A DNA stretch of 64,000 bases from positions 1 through 64,000 of the forward strand of contig JARLHR010000206.1 in the NCBI GenBank assembly GCA_031292145.1, written 5' to 3'. Positions 17,423-62,098 of the stretch are shown one piece after another. Numbering within the stretch: position 1 is the stretch's first letter; each line of letters starts with the position of its first letter. A program made the translations under genes and the position numbers. The notes below the pieces were generated by a model. It worked only from the letters and a program-made list of their open reading frames with translations, made no database searches and was not told where the DNA came from. The stretch comes from Clostridium sp. GTDB lineage: Bacteria; Bacillota; Clostridia; Clostridiales; Clostridiaceae.

Positions 17423-18076
17423 TTGAAAATTTCAGTAGCAATAGATGGTCCAGCAGGTGCAGGTAAAAGTACCATAGCAAAACTAGTTGGAAAAGAATAT
17501 AAGCTTATGTACATAAATACAGGCGCTATGTATAGAGCAGTAGCATTAAAAGCTAAAGAAAATAATTTGTCGCCAGATAAAATAGATGAAATTTGCAAGA
17601 TAATAGATACTCTTGAAATGCATTTTGAAAATGATGACTTGATTTTAAATGGTGAAAATATTCAAGAAAAAATTACGACACCAGAAATAAGTAATATTGT
17701 ATCAAATTATGCAAGTATTCCAGAAGTAAGATCCATGTTAGTAAAGCTTCAAAGGGATATGTCAAACAAGTTCAATGTGATTATGGATGGTAGAGATATT
17801 GGAACCGTTGTTCTAAAGAATGCAAATTTTAAGTTTTTTTTAACAGCTAGTCCAGAAGAGAGAGCAAATAGAAGATTTAAGGAATTACAAGATAGAAATA
17901 TTGAATGCTCATATGATCAAATATTACAGGATATAATAGATAGAGATTATAAAGATACTCATAGAGCTACGGACCCATTAAGAAAAGCAGACGATGCTAT
18001 GGAAATTGACACAACAAATTTAGATATCAGTGGAGTAGTAAATGTAATAAATGAGCACATAAAAAAAGGGAAATAG
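17423..18076 (+). CDS. cmk: Cytidylate kinase
   Basis: Cmk phosphorylates CMP and dCMP with ATP. The 217-residue protein has the P-loop [27 protein letters not shown], the NMP-binding insertion with [13 protein letters not shown], and [19 protein letters not shown]. The start codon is TTG at 17423, with GGGGAGAAAG upstream. ispH-rpsA begins 13 bp after the stop, the classic cmk-ispH-S1 arrangement of clostridia. Confidence 0.96.
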
Positions 18077-27585: not shown

Positions 27586-28953
27586 ATGAATTTTGATATA
27601 GAAAAGCTAACTAATGAAAATGTAAATGATGAAAAGAAATTATTCTTTATACAAACTTATGGTTGTCAAATGAATGAGGAAGATTCTGAAAAACTTTCAG
27701 GTATGCTCAAGAGAATGGGATATGAAAGAACAGAAAATAGAGACGAAGCTTCAATAATAATATTCAACACTTGTTGCGTTAGAGAAAATGCTGAGAATAA
27801 AGTATATGGCAATCTAGGAGCATTAAAAAAGCAAAAAGAAAAAAATCCGGATTTAGTTATTGGTATTTGTGGATGCATGATGCAACAAAAGGGAATGGCA
27901 GATGAAATTTTAAAGAGATTTCCATATGTTAACATAATATTTGGTACTCATAACTCATATAAATTTCCTGAATATTTAAATAGAGTTAAAACAGACGGAG
28001 TACAAATTAAAGAAATAGTTGATAAAGAAACGGAAATAGTAGAAGGAGTACCTATAGACAGAAAAAGTGATGTAAAAGGTTTTGTAACCATAATGTATGG
28101 ATGCAATAATTTCTGTACATATTGTGTTGTGCCTTATGTAAGAGGTAGAGAAAGAAGCAGAAAGCCAGAAGACATTGAAAATGAAATAAAGGAAATGGTA
28201 TCGAACGGCTACAAAGAAGTGACTCTTTTAGGTCAAAATGTAAACTCTTACGGAAAAGGATTGGAAGAAAACATAACTTTTGCTGATTTATTAAGAAGAG
28301 TAAATAAAGTGGAAGGTCTCGAAAGAATCAGATTTATGACATCTCACCCTAAGGATTTGACATTAGATGTGGTAGATGCTATCAGAGATTGCGATAAAGT
28401 CTGTGAACAAATACATTTACCAGTGCAAAGTGGTTCTGATAGAATATTAAGGGAAATGAATAGACATTACACTAAGGATCAATATATTGAATTAGCAAAG
28501 AAAATAAGAAAAGAAATTCCTAATGTAACATTTTCTACAGATATAATCGTTGGATTCCCTGGCGAAACTGAAGAAGATTTTAGTGAAACTTTAGAACTAG
28601 CTAAAGAAATTCAATATGATGCAGCATTTACTTTTATTTATTCAAGAAGAAATCATACTCCAGCTGATAAGATGGAAAATCAAATTCCGGATGACATAAA
28701 ACATGAAAGATTTAACAGGTTAGTTGAAATAGTAAATAACGGTATTGCAAAGGGAAATAAAGAAGCCGAAGGTAAAATATATGATGTTTTAGTTGAAGGA
28801 TTCAGCAAGAATGACGAATCAAAACTAACTGGTAGAACTAGAAATGGACGACTAGTCAATTTTGAAGGTGGGGTAGAGTTAATAGGAAAATTAGTTGATG
28901 TAAAAATAGTTAAAGCAAACTCTTTCTCTTTAGTTGGAGAAGTTGTTAAATAA
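27586..28953 (+). CDS. miaB: tRNA-2-methylthio-N6-dimethylallyladenosine synthase MiaB
   Basis: MiaB adds the methylthio group to i6A37 in tRNA, acting after MiaA (encoded at 36289-37218). The 455-residue methylthiotransferase has the N-terminal cluster cysteines ([26 protein letters not shown]), the radical-SAM motif [20 protein letters not shown] and a C-terminal TRAM domain. Both [4Fe-4S] clusters are fully represented. GGAGG precedes the ATG. In many clostridia miaB is followed directly by mutS-mutL; here it is not. Confidence 0.96.
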
Positions 28954-29240: not shown

Positions 29241-29456
29241 ATATAATAAGTGCCATTTTTAACGCGTTAGAACAAATGTTCTTGGAGACGAAAATAACAA
29301 CAGGCTAAAACGATAAATTTACAATAATTTTCTTAGTAATTTATATTGTATGAAGTAGGAGAGTCCTAATTTTATGATAAACTCATATAAAAAGCATGCT
29401 TTACATGATTCAAGAACAAATGTTCTAGAACACTCAAAACAGCACTTATTATTCAT
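29241..29456. mobile_element. 216-bp inverted-repeat (MITE-like) element with LexA-box arms
   Basis: The left arm (29241-29285) and right arm (29410-29456) are imperfect inverted repeats of about 45 bp: AATAAGTGC, then a T-rich stretch, then a GAAC-containing block. Each arm contains GAACAAATGTTC (29270-29281 and 29414-29425), which fits the Gram-positive LexA/DinR box GAAC-N4-GTTC. The interior has only a 28-codon frame (29374-29460) with weak support. The surrounding 28954-29485 has no gene. Confidence 0.6.
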
Positions 29457-29485: not shown

Positions 29486-29962
29486 TTATTTGATTATATC
29501 GTTAAAAGAACAAACTATCACTTTTTCAAGATCCTTCGGATTCATTTCTATTTGCGCACCTATTTTTCCACCACTAAATACAATTGAATCAAATAGCATA
29601 GCATCTTCTTGAATATAGGTTTTGAATACTTTTTTCATACCAAGTGGGGAACAGCCACCCCTAATATATCCGGTAATTTTATTTATATCTTTAACGTGAA
29701 TCATTTCTATATTTTTTTCACCTGCTGCTTTGCTAGCTTTTTTCATATCTAATTCTTCAGCAACTGGAATTACAAAAACATAAAATTCTTTAGAATGACC
29801 TTGAGTCACTAGAGTTTTAAAGACTTGATTAACATCCTTTTCTATTTTATGCGCAACTGCAACACCGGCGATTTTGCCATCTTTATTTTCATAGCTATGA
29901 GTTGTATATATAATGTTGTTACTGTCTAAAATTCTCATCGCATTAGTTTTTCCTTGTGCCAT
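29486..29962 (-). CDS. ybaK: YbaK/EbsC-type Cys-tRNA(Pro) deacylase
   Basis: A 158-residue editing-domain protein that hydrolyses mischarged Cys-tRNA(Pro). Recognisable parts are TNAMRILDSNNIIYTTHSYE, VFKTLVTQG, the catalytic-lysine region KAAGEKNIEMI, GYIRGGCSPLGMKK and the C-terminal GKIGAQIEMNPKDL. All match the family. The reverse-strand ATG at 29962 has GGGAGGAATT upstream. It stands alone between the 216-bp element and a 700-bp intergenic region. Confidence 0.93.
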   Translation of the reverse strand: MAQGKTNAMRILDSNNIIYTTHSYENKDGKIAGVAVAHKIEKDVNQVFKTLVTQGHSKEFYVFVIPVAEELDMKKASKAAGEKNIEMIHVKDINKITGYIRGGCSPLGMKKVFKTYIQEDAMLFDSIVFSGGKIGAQIEMNPKDLEKVIVCSFNDIIK

Positions 29963-33700: not shown

Positions 33701-33739
33701 GAACGTTAGTTTGCTATATTATATAGTCTATGTTATAAT
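33701..33739 (+). promoter_or_regulatory. lexA promoter with overlapping LexA-like box
   Basis: TTGCTA (33711-33716), 17 nt, TATAAT (33734-33739) is a near-consensus promoter. GAACGTTAGTTT (33701-33712) resembles GAAC-N4-GTTC with the last base changed and overlaps the -35 box, as expected for autorepression. Confidence 0.65.
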
Positions 33740-33766
33740 ATTTATAAGAATAGTGAGGTGTTTGTA

Positions 33767-34375
33767 ATGTCAGACGAAAAGGATAAGCAATCAGAAATAT
33801 ATGAATTTTTAAAAACTTATACAGAAAGCAAAGGTTACCCTCCTTCAGTAAGGGAAATTTGTGAAGCTGTATCTTTAAGATCAACTTCAACTGTTCATGG
33901 TCATTTGAAAAGATTAGAGAAAAAAGGTATGATTAAAAGAGATCCATCTAAGCCAAGAGCTTTAGAAATAGCAGAGCTTTCAACGTCCAAAAAAGAAATG
34001 ATTAATATTCCGATTGTAGGTAAAATAACAGCCGGGCTCCCAATACTTGCAACAGAAAATATTGAAGATACATTTCCACTACCATTGGATTATATAAAAC
34101 ATGATAATGATTTATTTATCCTTCATGTATCAGGAGAAAGTATGATCAATGCAGGAATTAGAGATAAAGATTTAGCTATTATAGAAAGTTCACAAACTGC
34201 TAAAAATGGTGATATAGTGGTTGCATTAATTGAAGATAGTGCTACAATTAAAAGATTCTTTAAAGAAAAGAATCATATTAGACTTCAACCTGAAAATGAT
34301 GCTATGGACCCAATTATAGTAGATGATTGCAAAATCTTAGGCAAACTTGTTGGAATATTCAGATCTTTTGTATAA
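33767..34375 (+). CDS. lexA: LexA repressor
   Basis: LexA represses SOS genes and cleaves itself when RecA filaments form. Residues 1-65 are the winged helix ([25 protein letters not shown]). The cleavage site is Ala-Gly in [10 protein letters not shown] (about 89-90); the dyad is Ser in VSGESM (about 125) and Lys in ATIKRFF (about 162). The ATG at 33767 is preferred over the GTG at 33758 because GTGAGGTG is then correctly spaced. ynbB converges from the other side. Confidence 0.96.
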
Positions 34376-37326: not shown

Positions 37327-39315
37327 TTATATTATTCTTCTAAATTTTTTATCAATATCTGTACTAGTAAATTTTATGATTATAGGCCTGCCATGTGGAC
37401 AATGAAAAGGATCATTTATATATCTTAAATCCTCTACTAAATTTATCATCTCACTTATTTCTAATTTATCATTTGCCTTAATAGCAGCCTTACACGCTTT
37501 AGTAGCTATTGCATTATGTTTTACCTCAGTGGTCTTTCCATTACCTAAGTTTTTTAGATTATCAAGAATATCTAAGAATAAATTTTTAGGATTAAGTTTT
37601 CCAAGAAAGTATGGAACTTCTTTTAAAGATAATGAATTACCACCAAATTCCTCAAGTAAAAAACCGGCATATTTAAATATCTCCTTATTTTCTTCAAAAT
37701 AAGAATAATCATCTGCGCTTAAATCAATGACACTTGGAACCATAAGTGGTTGAATTATAATTGATCCATCTTCAATTTCTTTTAAATATTTTTCAAATAG
37801 TATCTTTTCATGAGCTGCATGTTGGTCAATCATGTATAAAGTTCCATCAAATTCACCCAATATATAAGTTTTATTATATTGACCAATTATAGAAATGGGT
37901 GGAAATTTAGCACTTGGCTTTATTTCATTATAATCTGTTTCATTCTTAAAGCTTGATATTTTAACATTTTCAGAATTATTTTTTATATTATCGATATCAT
38001 CATCATAGTCATTCCCTTTTATTTCATCAATAAAATGTGATTTAAGACCTATAGGAAGCTTGATTTCCGTTTTCTCAATTTCATTTATATCATTATTTTC
38101 AGAGTCTGCCTTACCATATTCCTTATGTGTAGATACAAAACTAGTATCTATATGTTCACTATTATTATCAACTTTTAAGTCCTTACCTTCATCAATCAAA
38201 GTTTTAACTGCCGAATTTACAAATTTAACTTTTTCCTCTTCTTCCTTAATTTTAAAAGTAATTTCTTCAAAAGTCGGAGGCGTATAATTTTTAGTGCTTT
38301 CCTCTTTTATAGCAAAGGTCTCAAATACTTCATTTTTAAAAGAAGTGTGAACTGCTCCAAATATATTTTTAAAAATCATTCTTTCATCGTTAAACTTTAC
38401 TTCTGCTTTAGTTGGATGAATATTAACATCTACATATTCAGGATAAATTTCTATAAATAAAATAAAGAATGGAAACTTATTTACTGTAGAGAAAGACTTA
38501 AATGCTTGTTCAACAGCTACTGCTAGTGACCTATTTTTTATATATCTTTTATTAACAAATATACTTTGATTATTTCTAGAGCCTCTTGCTATCTCCTCAT
38601 TGCCTATATAACCATAGACAGTAATAAGATCAGAAGTATCACTAAAATAAATTATGTTATCCGTTATAGATTTACCGTATAGAGTTCTTATTACATCTTT
38701 AAGTTCTCCATTGCCAAAAGTATGAATAATCTTTTTTTCATTATTATATAATTTAAAACTTATTTTAGGATTAGCTATAGCAAGCCTAGTTATTATATCA
38801 TTAATTACAGAAGCTTCTTTTGAAGCAGATTTTAAAAACTTCTTTCTAGCAGGTACATTATAAAATAAATCACGAACTTCTATTATAGTTCCTTTATTAA
38901 CACCACATTCAGTTACATCAGAAAATTTACTGCCTTCAATAGTTATTTCATATCCTAAGCCCTGATCTTTTTCTTTAGATTTTAAATTGACTTTAGCTAC
39001 AGAAGCTATTGATGGAAGTGCTTCTCCTCTAAAACCTAAAGTATGTATATTATATATATCTTCTGATTGATTTATCTTGCTAGTAGCATGTGGAAGAAAG
39101 GCTTTGGCTATATCGCCTTTATATATACCATCTCCATCATCAATAATTCTAATGAGAGATATCCCACCTTCTTCAATTTCAATTACTATGTTTTTAGAAT
39201 TCGCATCAATAGAGTTTTCAACTAATTCTTTAACTACTGAAGCAGGTCTTTCAACTACCTCTCCTGCTGCTATCTTATTAGCAGTATCTTCACTTAATAT
39301 GTTAATTCTCTTCAA
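37327..39315 (-). CDS. mutL: DNA mismatch repair protein MutL
   Basis: MutL couples MutS mismatch recognition to strand nicking. The GHKL ATPase motifs are in KELVENSIDA, DDGDGI and TLGFRGEALPSIA. The C-terminal domain carries the endonuclease motif (IDQHAAHEKILFEKY) and CPHGRP, so this is a nicking MutL as expected in bacteria without MutH. The 662 residues include a low-complexity acidic linker. The start is a TTG with GGAGG upstream. mutS lies 16 kb away rather than adjacent. Confidence 0.96.
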   Translation of the reverse strand: MKRINILSEDTANKIAAGEVVERPASVVKELVENSIDANSKNIVIEIEEGGISLIRIIDDGDGIYKGDIAKAFLPHATSKINQSEDIYNIHTLGFRGEALPSIASVAKVNLKSKEKDQGLGYEITIEGSKFSDVTECGVNKGTIIEVRDLFYNVPARKKFLKSASKEASVINDIITRLAIANPKISFKLYNNEKKIIHTFGNGELKDVIRTLYGKSITDNIIYFSDTSDLITVYGYIGNEEIARGSRNNQSIFVNKRYIKNRSLAVAVEQAFKSFSTVNKFPFFILFIEIYPEYVDVNIHPTKAEVKFNDERMIFKNIFGAVHTSFKNEVFETFAIKEESTKNYTPPTFEEITFKIKEEEEKVKFVNSAVKTLIDEGKDLKVDNNSEHIDTSFVSTHKEYGKADSENNDINEIEKTEIKLPIGLKSHFIDEIKGNDYDDDIDNIKNNSENVKISSFKNETDYNEIKPSAKFPPISIIGQYNKTYILGEFDGTLYMIDQHAAHEKILFEKYLKEIEDGSIIIQPLMVPSVIDLSADDYSYFEENKEIFKYAGFLLEEFGGNSLSLKEVPYFLGKLNPKNLFLDILDNLKNLGNGKTTEVKHNAIATKACKAAIKANDKLEISEMINLVEDLRYINDPFHCPHGRPIIIKFTSTDIDKKFRRII

Positions 39316-55127: not shown

Positions 55128-57869
55128 TTAATTGTTCAACTTTTTAGCCTCACCTATCAACCTATATAAAGTATTCATAGCCTCCATAGGATTTAAGTTT
55201 AATATATCAACTTCACTGATTTCTTTAAGTAAGGCTTCTTTTTCCATATAACTAAAATCTAATTGCATATTATTAGAAGCTTCCTTCTCCTTATGCTTTT
55301 TATGTTTTGTTTCTTCCTTAAATTCAACTTTTGTAGAAGTTTCATTTTCATATTTTATCTCTTCTATATATTCATTTTTGCTTTCAGAAACTGTTTCAGC
55401 AACTATATCTACAGCAGCCTCATTTTCTTTAATTTCGCTATTTGTTACCTTATGAATATCAAAATTGTTTTCTCCCTCTAAGCTTAAAAGTATTTCTTTA
55501 GCTCTATTAATAACTGCTTCTGGAAGGCCTGCAAGTTTAGCTACTTCTATTCCATAGGATTCATCGGCACCGCCTTCTACTATTTTTCTTAAGAATATTA
55601 CGCTATCCTTCATCTTCTTAACAGCTACAGAATAATTCTTAACTCCATGTAGTATTCCTTCTAGTTTTACTAGTTCATGATAGTGGGTTGCAAACAAGGT
55701 TTTACATCTTAAATTTTCATTTCCTGTTATGTATTCAATAACTGACCATGCTATGGAAAGTCCATCATAGGTTGAAGTTCCTCTTCCTACTTCATCTAAT
55801 AAAACTAAGCTCTTTGATGTGGCATTTTTAAGTATATTTGATACTTCCCACATTTCAACCATAAAAGTTGATTTACCTCCAGCCAAATCATCTGATGCTC
55901 CAATTCTAGTAAATATCTTATCGCATATTGAAATATTTGCATTTGCTGCTGGTATAAAGGACCCAATTTGAGCCATTAGCGTAATAAGTGCTACCTGTCT
56001 CATGTATGTAGATTTACCGGCCATATTAGGACCTGTTATTAAAAGTAATTCCTTATCACTTTGATTTAAGGTAGTGTTATTAGAAACAAACTCCCCCCTT
56101 CCAATTACCTTTTCGACTACTGGATGCCTGCCGTCAATTATTTCTATTACTCCCTCTTCGTTAAGTTCTGGCTTAACATAGTCATTTTCTAAAGCTACTA
56201 GCGCTAAGGTAGATATTCCATCAAGATTTGAAATTATTCTAGCACTTTGCTTAAGTCTTGAAATTTCTTTTTCTATTCTATCTCTTATATCCGTAAATAA
56301 AGCATATTCTAAATTAATAAGCTTTTCTTCTGCACCTAGAATTTTATCTTCCATTACCTTTAACTCTTCAGTTATATATCTTTCTGCATTGGACAGAGTT
56401 TGTTTTCTTACATATCTCCCTTCTGGAATAGAGCTGTAATTAGATTTCGAAATCTCTATGAAATAACCAAATACTTTGTTATAACCTACTTTTAAAGACT
56501 TAATTCCAGTAAAATCTCTTTCACGATTTTCAAGGGCAGCAATCCATTCTTTCCCATGGAGTTTTGACTGCCTTAATTCATCTACTTCACTATTATATCC
56601 ATCCCTTATTATATTTCCTTCTTTTATGCTTAAAGATGGTTCCTCTTTAATAGATGAGTCTAATAAATCTTTTATATCGGTTAATTCATCAAGCTCTTCA
56701 AAATATTCTTTCAAAAGTGCAGAATTTCTATCACTTAAAAGCTGCTTAATCATAGGGATTTTCTCCAAAGATGCTTTAAGAGATAACATATCCTTTGCAT
56801 TTACATTTTTATTTGATATCTTGCCTACAATTCTTTCTATATCATAGATTTCTTTTAGAGCAGTTCTTAGATCTTCATTAAAGCTGATGGAACTAAAGGC
56901 CTCATTAACTCCATTTAATCTCTTTTCTATTTCAGATTTAATAATCAGAGGTTCTTCTATCCACTTTCTAATAGTTCTGCCTCCCATAGATGTTGCACTT
57001 TTATCTAAAACCCATAGAAGAGAACCTTTTTTATTTTTTTCTCTTATACTTTCGGTAAGTTCTAGGTTTCTTCTTGAATTTCCATCTATAGTCATGTAAT
57101 TTATTATTTCATATTGTTCTAATAAATTTATATTAGTCAAACTCATTTTTTGAGTTTCATATATGTACTTAAGTAACACGCTACTTGTAATTTCCCTTTC
57201 ATAAGTTAAACCTGCTACTTCCATCTCAGAAAATTGCGCTATAAGTTCTTCCTTTGAAACTAAAAATTCATCGTAATTCTTTTTAGATATAAGTGCTGAT
57301 GTGATTCCTTTTATATCGCCAAGAATATCCTCACTTAATTTTTCATCTACTAAAATTTCTTTAGGGGAAACTTTAGCAATTTCATCTAATAAGCTTATTC
57401 TTATATTATCAAAAGAAGTTGTTTTAAATTCACCAGTACTTATGTCTGAAATAGAAATACCGATTTTATCATCATTTATGTGGATAGCCATTAAATACGT
57501 ATTATCATTTTCAATAGAACTATTGCTATCTATAAAAGTTCCAGGGGTAATTATTTTTACAACGCCTCTTTTAACGATGCCTTTTGCTTCCTTTGGATCT
57601 TCAAGCTGTTCACAGATTGCAACCTTATAGCCTTTACTAATAAGTCTTGGAATATATGCCGCTGCTGCATGATGCGGAATTCCACACATAGGCGCTCTCT
57701 CTTCAAGTCCACAATTCTTCCCTGTAAGCACTAGTTCAAGTTCTCTTGATACAGTTATTGCATCCTCAAAGAACATTTCATAAAAATCACCTAATCTATA
57801 AAAAAGAATACAATCATTGTATTCTTCTTTAGTTTTCATGTATTCTACCATCATTGGCGTTAAAGCCAT
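55128..57869 (-). CDS. mutS: DNA mismatch repair protein MutS
   Basis: MutS recognises mismatches and small loops. The 913-residue protein contains the mismatch-binding Phe-x-Glu motif in [13 protein letters not shown], the Walker [14 protein letters not shown], Walker B in [16 protein letters not shown], and a C-terminal helix-hairpin region ([21 protein letters not shown]). It is slightly longer than usual owing to an acidic linker near 830-870. AGGAGG precedes the ATG. In most clostridia mutL follows mutS directly; here mutL is 16 kb away. Confidence 0.97.
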
Positions 57870-60476: not shown

Positions 60477-62000
60477 TTACGTATTTTTAATAATACCAAT
60501 AGCCACTCCAAGGAAATGAACTTGTTGATCTTCTATAATTATTGGGGCATACTTTTCATTTTCAGGCATTAAAACAATATGTCCATCAACATTTTTGTAT
60601 GTTTTCAATGTAGCTTCACCATCAATATCAACTGCAACTATATCTTTAACATTTGGATAAGGCTGCTTATATATTACTACATAATCTCCATCACCAATGT
60701 TCTTATTTATCATGGAATCCCCTTTTACTTTAAGAATAAAGGTATCCTTAGAATTTCTTATCCATTCTTTTGGTAAAATATAATTATCCTCAATGGAATC
60801 ATTCATAAGAATTGGACTACCTGCTGCTATTTCATTGAATACTGGAATACTTAAAGTGTTTTCTACTTTTTCCTCAGTCCCATTACGTTCAATATATATA
60901 TTATCTATAGTATCAGGATCTTTTATAAATTTATGAGATACATTTCTCTTTAGATCTATATATTCTATAGTATTCAATGTTAAGTATTTATCAGCTTCAA
61001 CTTTATTTCGAACATCTTTACCTTTATGTAAATCGATTGTATTAAATTCAAATATATTTATTTCATTCATATAGTATTCAGTCAATGTAATACTCTTTCC
61101 TTTCATATCATATCCTAAACTACTAAAAGATCTTCCATTTATTAACCAAGCTTCTAAATTTGTTTCTTCTCCACTATTAAATATAAAATTTATACTTGAA
61201 TAATTCTTATCATTATAAAGTAATTTTAAGAATTCAAATTCAACTTTCGTTAACCTTTCACTATTATCTATAAAAATGTGGGTATAATATTTAGTTCTAT
61301 TTTCTTTTGCGCTTTCAAGTGCTATAATTGCCCTATCTTGCAAATCTATTTTATTTATCTTTTTTAAATTATTGTTATATTCAATTAGAATTTCGTAAAT
61401 AGCTTGTCTTTGTTTTGAATTCTTTCTAAGTATTTTAGTTTCACCAGTTAGTCTATTAACACGACTTTTTCTATATGCTTTTTGATATTCATCAAGCTCC
61501 ATAAAATTAGAAGATTTAATCCAAGTGATTTCTTCTTGAATAAATTTAGTATAATTAGAATCAAATATATCAAATTTTTCTTTCTCATATTTCTTATGAA
61601 TAACTTTTATTGCATTCTTTAATTGTTTTTCGCACTCTTGAGTTGATGCAATTAGAATTTTTATTTTATGTTCTTCCTGATATTGATTAAAATAATATAA
61701 TATTAATGAGTCTATAGTATTTATTTCTAACTTATTACTAGTATCTTCATCAAAAAAACTACTTTGGTGATATTTTCTACTATCCAAATTTTCATATATA
61801 TATGATACATATTGAGAATGTTCTTCATTACAAGCTGCTATAAGTATTTTATCATCTTTATCTATACAATAATTATTAAGTAATGTAGGAATCTTATTTA
61901 CATAAGCTGTAGTTTTTCCAGTTTCTTTTTCGCCTTTTATTAATAAATGACCATTAGGTTTACTGTTAATTATCTTCTTTTGCTTTTTGTTAAGTTCCAC
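60477..62000 (-). CDS. UvrD-like degenerate ATPase fused to a LexA-type S24 peptidase domain
   Basis: Residues 1-310 resemble the N-terminal half of UvrD/Rep helicases: Q-motif LNKKQKKIIN and Walker A GEKETGKTT. The Walker B region reads FIDNSERLTKVEF where active helicases have DEAQD, and motif III is replaced by FNSGEE. Helicase motifs IV-VI are absent. Residues 384-507 form an intact S24 domain: Ala-Gly site in EIAAGSPIL (about 393), Ser in KGDSM (about 429) and Lys in ATLKTY (about 466). There is no recognisable HTH. The start is GTG at 62000 (GGAAGGAGGAG); longer starts lie in a repeat. Confidence 0.8.
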   Translation of the reverse strand: MELNKKQKKIINSKPNGHLLIKGEKETGKTTAYVNKIPTLLNNYCIDKDDKILIAACNEEHSQYVSYIYENLDSRKYHQSSFFDEDTSNKLEINTIDSLILYYFNQYQEEHKIKILIASTQECEKQLKNAIKVIHKKYEKEKFDIFDSNYTKFIQEEITWIKSSNFMELDEYQKAYRKSRVNRLTGETKILRKNSKQRQAIYEILIEYNNNLKKINKIDLQDRAIIALESAKENRTKYYTHIFIDNSERLTKVEFEFLKLLYNDKNYSSINFIFNSGEETNLEAWLINGRSFSSLGYDMKGKSITLTEYYMNEINIFEFNTIDLHKGKDVRNKVEADKYLTLNTIEYIDLKRNVSHKFIKDPDTIDNIYIERNGTEEKVENTLSIPVFNEIAAGSPILMNDSIEDNYILPKEWIRNSKDTFILKVKGDSMINKNIGDGDYVVIYKQPYPNVKDIVAVDIDGEATLKTYKNVDGHIVLMPENEKYAPIIIEDQQVHFLGVAIGIIKNT

Positions 62001-62039
62001 TTTACTCCTCCTTCCTTGATTATTATTTATTACGAGCTC

Positions 62040-62098
62040 AGACATATTCAAAAAATATAAATAGCATGGTGAATTTGCCATTCTATCTCATATACCTT
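62040..62098. repeat. Diverged short palindrome upstream of the UvrD-S24 gene
   Basis: ACATATTCAAAAAATATA is partly mirrored by a TCATATACCTTAAG end, an eroded copy of the AGGCATATTC family. Confidence 0.45.

Follow-up and report, generated by a model that had tools for sequence, protein, structure and literature searches.

Known S24 switches include repressors and a polymerase subunit. One gene in the window (the whole stretch of 64,000 nucleotides analyzed here) joins an S24 self-cleaving domain to half of a UvrD-type helicase, and raises the question of what such a domain would switch when its partner is a helicase-derived module. The initial annotation proposed a damage-triggered switch in which cleavage releases or inactivates a DNA-binding ATPase module. 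No description of a UvrD-S24 protein, with a helicase-derived S24 partner, was found in the open-licence papers searched. S24 proteins with other HTH partners are already characterized, according to the accessible part of PMC8565304.

Gene and domain organization

The minus-strand ORF extends from 60477 to 62081. The GTG at 62000 is very probably the real start of the gene, because AGGAGG lies upstream at a normal distance and most fetched relatives begin there. This start gives a protein of 507 aa and agrees with the gene end of 62000 proposed initially. The protein matched PF00580 (UvrD-helicase) with 45.1 bits (cut-off 23) and PF00717 (Peptidase_S24) with 104.9 bits (cut-off 23.3), which bears out the claim of a UvrD-type half and a LexA-type domain in one protein. 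The homology supports a P-loop helicase fold in the N half. In the PDB sequence set, chains of LexA and UmuD structures matched the S24 end. The Q-motif Gln (Q7), Walker A, the cleavage site (IAA/GSP), Ser429 and Lys466 are all present as annotated, and helicase motifs IV–VI were, as annotated, not found in the alignment with full-length relatives. The features are listed in Table 1.

Table 1. Positions of the features described in this study (window coordinates; the last row gives coordinates within other loci)
Feature	Position	Strand	Basis
Whole short-form gene, 507 aa, GTG start	60477..62000	-	AGGAGG upstream of GTG at 62000; starts of relatives
UvrD/REP helicase N-terminal (1A/1B) homology, residues 3-267	61200..61994	-	PF00580; profile alignment with full-length relatives
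Walker A GEKETGKTT, residues 23-31	61908..61934	-	Sequence/alignment
Altered Walker B FIDNSE, residues 243-248 (DESQ-like in full-length relatives)	61257..61274	-	Alignment
Approximate site, residues about 313-342, of a putative internal deletion that removed motif IV and beyond, domain 2A/2B and the nuclease	60975..61064	-	Profile alignment, junction lengths
Linker region common to the long form (YIDLKRNVSHKFIKD...), residues about 343-385	60846..60974	-	Alignment
S24 (LexA/UmuD-type) self-cleaving domain, residues 386-501	60498..60845	-	PF00717; LexA and UmuD chain matches
Predicted cleavage site IAA/G, residues 391-394 (bond A393-G394)	60819..60830	-	Invariant in short forms
Predicted catalytic Ser429	60714..60716	-	Alignment to LexA
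Predicted catalytic Lys466	60603..60605	-	Alignment to LexA
Ordinary LexA of the genome (HTH + S24), LexA box GAACGTTAGTTT upstream at 33701	33758..34375	+	PF01726, PF00717; box match
Long relatives without S24	L067/L068:4998-6965, L072:4074-6011, L010:742-2487, L011:1513-3054, L018:1507-3186		

No HTH family was present among the five Pfam families matched by the protein at E up to 1, in line with the initial statement that the N half lacks an HTH. A plain LexA repressor was rejected, since the protein has no HTH (PF01726) and a separate true LexA is encoded in the window. The S24 half alone passed the NCBIfam lexA equivalog model (116.2 bits, cut-off 110.95), and the gene could therefore be labelled lexA by automatic annotation. 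The PRK10276 umuD-type model gave 75 bits, under its cut-off of 110. UmuD has approximately 140 aa and acts with UmuC, whereas the window protein has 507 aa and a helicase half. The gene is flanked by an ABC transporter ATPase and a UPF0014 membrane protein on one side and by a divergent HAD hydrolase on the other.

Long and short forms of the family

The homologue search called for in the initial annotation revealed a large family, in which the window protein represents a short form that has apparently arisen twice and that has long helicase-nuclease-S24 relatives. The family set comprised 103 proteins, an uneven sample of ORFs of at least 380 aa from the fetched loci. It was divided into 28 long forms, 6 long relatives without S24, 16 short forms of the window's clade and 53 short forms of a second clade, with L114 (533 aa) counted as short against its automatic label of "long".

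The long form (approximately 810–870 aa) comprises a whole helicase, a PD-(D/E)XK nuclease and then an S24 tail like that of the short form, in the Pfam order PF00580, PF13361, PF13588 (HSDR_N_2) and PF00717. The window protein has the same order of parts and differs from these relatives in that they possess the full motor and the nuclease, occur patchily and often lie beside restriction or defence genes. The short-form and long-form profiles aligned over 497 columns (E = 4e-147), a resemblance beyond chance, and the approximately 300 unmatched long-form residues formed one block. The long form L064 (813 aa) is 53% identical to the window protein over the N half, and its S24 tail (residues 647–813) is 65% identical. 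By its Pfam domains, WP_013389202.1, encoded on an Ilyobacter polytropus plasmid, is a long form as well, and its annotation reads only "S24 family peptidase". Automatic annotation thus hides the family, through this name for the long form and through the lexA model that the S24 half passes.

Conserved and lost residues

The long forms kept the Walker B Glu, the motif III Gln and the motif IV and VI arginines in 28/28 cases, the nuclease Glu in 27/28 and the nuclease Lys in 28/28. Their S24 bond and dyad were intact, except for Ser in place of Ala at the bond in two of the 28 and Asp in place of Gly in one.

The short forms showed a different pattern. The Q-motif Gln was kept in 16/16 proteins of the window's clade and 48/53 of the other, the Walker A Lys in 16/16 and 51/53 (one of the two misses is a row ended by its contig), and the Walker B Asp in 16/16 and 50/53. 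The catalytic Glu of Walker B remained in only 1/16 and 11/53, versus 28/28 long forms. Motifs V–VI were absent from all 69 short forms, apart from one chance G in an alignment column. The motif Ia Lys, which we take to have a role in ssDNA binding as in PcrA/UvrD, was replaced by Glu or Asp in 16/16 proteins of the window's clade. Two representatives of the other clade fell under the Pfam UvrD cut-off. The change of Walker B to DNSE, noted initially, was confirmed, and the ancestral sequence DEAQ was not: the full-length relatives carry DESQ (also DECQ, DETQ and DEGQ).

An active helicase was rejected on these residues (DNSE Walker B, motifs IV–VI absent). The active ATPase module of the initial annotation is not favoured, because the window protein and 15 of 16 members of its clade have no catalytic Glu, motifs III and IV–VI have disappeared or are missing, and an acidic residue replaces the motif Ia Lys. 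For the same reasons, the better guess is that the short form binds ATP and neither hydrolyzes it nor translocates. The 11 of 53 rows of the other clade that keep the Walker B Glu count against this pseudo-ATPase reading. One short form, L031:1486-2871 (+), has a destroyed Walker A together with an intact S24 dyad and cleavage site, so ATP binding is not needed in every case.

All 69 short forms compared kept the Ala-Gly pair of the cleavage bond as well as the catalytic Ser and Lys, and loss of the Ser/Lys pair in close homologues, named at the outset as evidence against a switch, was thus not observed. Purifying selection acts on both halves of the short form, as indicated by NG86 dN/dS values of 0.06–0.30 (N half) and 0.04–0.18 (linker and S24) in 13 pairs. 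The mean pairwise identity of S24 and 1A/1B was 0.75 and 0.56 in the window's clade, and 0.57 and 0.36 in the other.

The S24 domain is thus the best conserved part in both short clades. This would suit a protein that serves as a ligand or buffer of RecA filaments, whose S24 domain competes with LexA and tunes the SOS threshold while the N half anchors or oligomerizes it; L031, which lost Walker A and kept S24, would suit it as well. However, the two short clades have both retained the same 1A/1B half, including its Q motif, Walker A and Walker B Asp, with dN/dS well below 1, which argues that the N half does more than fill space. We consider the buffer explanation improbable.

Two origins of the short form

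In the phylogenetic analysis of 101 rows (L024 and L079 left out), the window's short clade was nested, with strong support, among the long forms, and the second short clade branched elsewhere. A single short-form group was rejected on this tree (AU p = 0.00034). A more careful tree, built from 48 of the 103 rows chosen after the 101-row tree was seen, had the same outcome; the long form was one-sided in 0% of its 200 bootstrap trees (AU p = 8.5e-5). A tree of the N half alone agreed with separate origins. A tree of the S24 domain alone agreed less firmly: the older short clade needs two changes there, and long branches were flagged. These part-protein trees left out L024, L079, the six rows without S24, L009, L050, L128, L132, L133 and L031.

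The junction between the flanking homologous positions measured 26–68 residues in the window's clade versus 10–61 residues, mostly 12–25, in the other. Two separate deletions would give two such differing ranges. The short form thus seems to have been made twice by internal deletion from the long form. We infer that the long form is the older state, since it has canonical helicase motifs, and chance alone would not restore a normal motor to a short form.

Distribution of the two forms

At least 115 of the 206 genomes of the window's family carried the short form, with one listed per genome; the count was made by hand, and four of these 115 rows (G010, G128, G075 and G208) are partial. The same 206 genomes held at least 27 long-form ORFs, and at least 19 genomes had both forms. 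Within the genus, at least 45 of 68 genomes carried the short form, 16 with the window's clade and 29 with the other. No genome of these 68 had both short clades among the matches listed. Across 398 evenly sampled genomes of the phylum, hand counts gave the short form in at least 2 genomes, both of the window's family, an intact long ORF in at least 14, and broken or incomplete long forms in at least 3 more. The short form was not seen outside the window's own family among the matches listed. By these family and phylum counts, the long form has a wide but patchy distribution, and the short form is common within a local range. The gene is not essential to the family group, as it is absent or undetected in many of its genomes.

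Relatives of the window's lineage carry the older short form, and none is listed with both. This suggests that an independently made newer copy replaced the older short form in the window's lineage and does the same job.

Some short-form copies are broken, for example G023, and the motor and nuclease are gone from the short form, as would be seen in a decaying relic of the long form without present function. This explanation is disfavoured and very improbable: it sits badly with the number of genomes that carry the short form, the S24 dyad in 69/69, dN/dS values of 0.04–0.30 and the two origins.

A viral origin of the family was rejected on the viral contigs searched and the phage matches listed. 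Viral contigs gave 37 loci, all of which matched the S24 end only, and no long form was found in them. Among the 20 of 91 phage matches listed, no record reached 80% coverage of the long form.

The fusobacterial long form L230:8001-10433, on the Ilyobacter polytropus plasmid pILYOP01, is 42% identical over the whole length. It sits among housekeeping-type genes with no visible defence cluster.

Neighbourhood of the long form

A NERD-HRDC gene lay directly beside the long form in 9 of 22 loci with wide flanks, and an HNH gene in 3 of 22. The long forms adjoining NERD-HRDC genes include L064:4998-8573, L065:3846-7472, L134:7998-11585 and L137:7992-11522. Other neighbours were methyl-directed restriction, GmrSD, SIR2 and DUF2357-PDDEXK proteins. 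None of 51 short-form loci had any of five defence-type gene clusters within five genes, the identity of each cluster being based on one or two members. No constant neighbour or partner gene of the short form was seen across both short clades.

The best PADLOC matches of the long form were "NERD+UvrD" and GajB of the Gabija system. The likeness lies in the UvrD-type helicase; the homology is confined to it, and the PADLOC profiles as matched do not include S24. The window protein had one weak PADLOC match (mad8, 17 bits) and was not called as a PADLOC defence system in a defence island. The long form looks like a phage-defence-type enzyme, and the long form with its NERD-HRDC gene is possibly a two-gene defence module that has not been described. 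A regulator dedicated to the long form was also considered for the short form and is unlikely, because, by a hand count, 96 of the 115 short-form genomes had no long form among the matches listed.

Predicted cleavage and its direction

All 69 short forms, and 25 of the 28 long ones, had the tripeptide Ile-Ala-Ala before the bond. In the genus, 19 of the 20 lexA loci read had VTA/G or ITA/G and one did not match the pattern. The predicted N-fragment of the short forms would therefore end in -IAA, versus Val/Ile-Thr-Ala in LexA of the same genus. The tmRNA tag of the window's genome is NAEDNFALAA.

The accessible part of a Clostridium thermocellum study (PMC12203970) reports that ClpXP degraded fragments with -IAA and -VAA ends in vitro, that an -FAA fragment resisted ClpXP and that purification of one -IAA fragment was not possible. 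Given the last two fragments, decay cannot be concluded from the tripeptide alone. The accessible parts of PMC5742171 and PMC10584840 describe degrons that lie hidden next to LexA-type cleavage sites, and the requirement that the N-fragment be cleared. Taken with these papers and the tmRNA tag, the invariant -IAA, which resembles a ClpXP degron, favours cleavage as an off-switch. Of the two outcomes allowed initially, inactivation is thus preferred, and release is less favoured.

The cleavage of UmuD to UmuD' is a precedent for an S24 on-switch. The S24 tail could likewise restrain the N half by dimerization or masking, so that RecA-triggered cleavage frees an acting fragment; in the long form, infection or damage would thereby unleash the helicase-nuclease. 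This possibility draws some support from the six long relatives that lack S24. Their helicase motifs are intact, and the nuclease is missing (three proteins) or lacks the E and K (three proteins), as if S24 restrains the nuclease. The pattern is a hint that S24 guards the nuclease of the long form. It fits the safety catch of an off-switch equally well, however, and the six relatives form only two lineages in the 101-row tree. The invariant -IAA end predicts a short-lived fragment, which speaks against release. We regard an on-switch as unlikely.

The trigger is assigned by likeness to the S24 family. IrvR, a LexA-like protein, is given as an exception to the RecA rule in the accessible part of PMC7101444, and this argues against taking RecA-dependent cleavage of the window protein for granted.

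LexA box and expression

The clostridial LexA box was taken as GAAC-N4-GTTT/C, as given in the accessible part of PMC4234289. Among 20 lexA loci, the filter recognized 12 lexA genes, and all 12 had the box upstream. Only 1 of 102 family genes had it, and no GAAC-N4-GTTY was found in the upstream stretch of the window gene. Regulation by LexA as an SOS gene is thus not supported. Since the box is missing from nearly all family genes, the family protein is apparently already there when damage occurs, and would be a target of RecA filaments rather than an SOS product.

Comparison with known proteins and proposed mechanism

The window protein resembles LexA, UmuD and phage CI in its complete C-terminal S24 domain, linker, Ala-Gly bond, Ser and Lys, and in having an N-terminal partner to be cut off. 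It belongs to the S24 switch family by every sequence feature tested and, on present evidence, would work like an S24 switch. It differs in that the partner is a helicase-derived P-loop module, not an HTH or a short arm. The family also differs from the LexA regulon in the missing LexA box of nearly all its genes. The 1A/1B half, Q motif, Walker A and Walker B Asp are shared with the SF1A helicases UvrD, PcrA and Rep (PF00580, PF13361). The window protein lacks their catalytic Glu, motif III Gln, motifs IV–VI and domain 2A, and so, in its present form, cannot be such a helicase.

Most S24 proteins whose function is known are repressors. The window protein might accordingly be a transcription factor without an HTH, whose 1A/1B half binds DNA or, like HelD, RNA polymerase, and whose cleavage derepresses genes. 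HelD chains were indeed the best non-S24 PDB matches of the short-form profile (6wvk_H, 3.6e-6), and Rep also matched weakly near the P-loop. This similarity covers approximately 40–55 residues around Walker A. HelD, which recycles RNA polymerase, is a complete motor, and none of the polymerase-binding parts that are specific to it was matched in the short form. A HelD-like factor was rejected because the match is confined to this weak P-loop similarity. With no HTH found and no constant neighbour across the two short clades, we hold a transcription factor to be highly improbable.

We return to the off-switch and propose a damage-erasable, ATP-binding pseudo-helicase. The ancestor would be a helicase-nuclease-S24 enzyme of defence-like type. 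Internal deletion would have taken its second motor domain and nuclease and left the 1A/1B half. This half would bind ATP, neither hydrolyze it nor move on DNA, and hold on to a partner. After damage, the S24 tail would dock on RecA-ssDNA filaments and cut its own Ala-Gly bond, as in LexA, UmuD and CI, and the freed N-fragment ending in -IAA would be destroyed by ClpXP. In this way the module would be lost post-translationally upon DNA damage, in parallel to the LexA regulon and not through it. We give this reading as a whole an even chance.

We further suggest, tentatively and with somewhat less than even confidence, a new class of damage effector: a pseudo-helicase derived twice, through internal deletions, from a mobile defence-type helicase-nuclease-S24 enzyme, fixed in Clostridiaceae and erased through RecA-dependent self-cleavage and ClpXP. 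If a switch on a helicase-derived module is real, RecA filaments would act directly on proteins beyond LexA. The long form raises a question of its own: could its S24 tail be a damage-triggered self-destruct that spares the host's own broken chromosome?

Other observations in the window

The interval between a plus-strand ORF that ends at 28953 and a minus-strand ORF at 29486–29962 contains two perfect LexA-box-like palindromes (GAACAAATGTTC), at 29270 and 29414, which are 144 bases apart. A third perfect LexA-like box is located at 17802. The ORFs at 37327–39315 and 55128–57869, recognized by eye, are presumably mutL and mutS. They are approximately 16 kb apart, with efflux-pump, methyltransferase and other genes between them. 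A broken copy of the family gene in L032 (Clostridium sp. MAG) lies beside an ORF that shares its start with this mutS.
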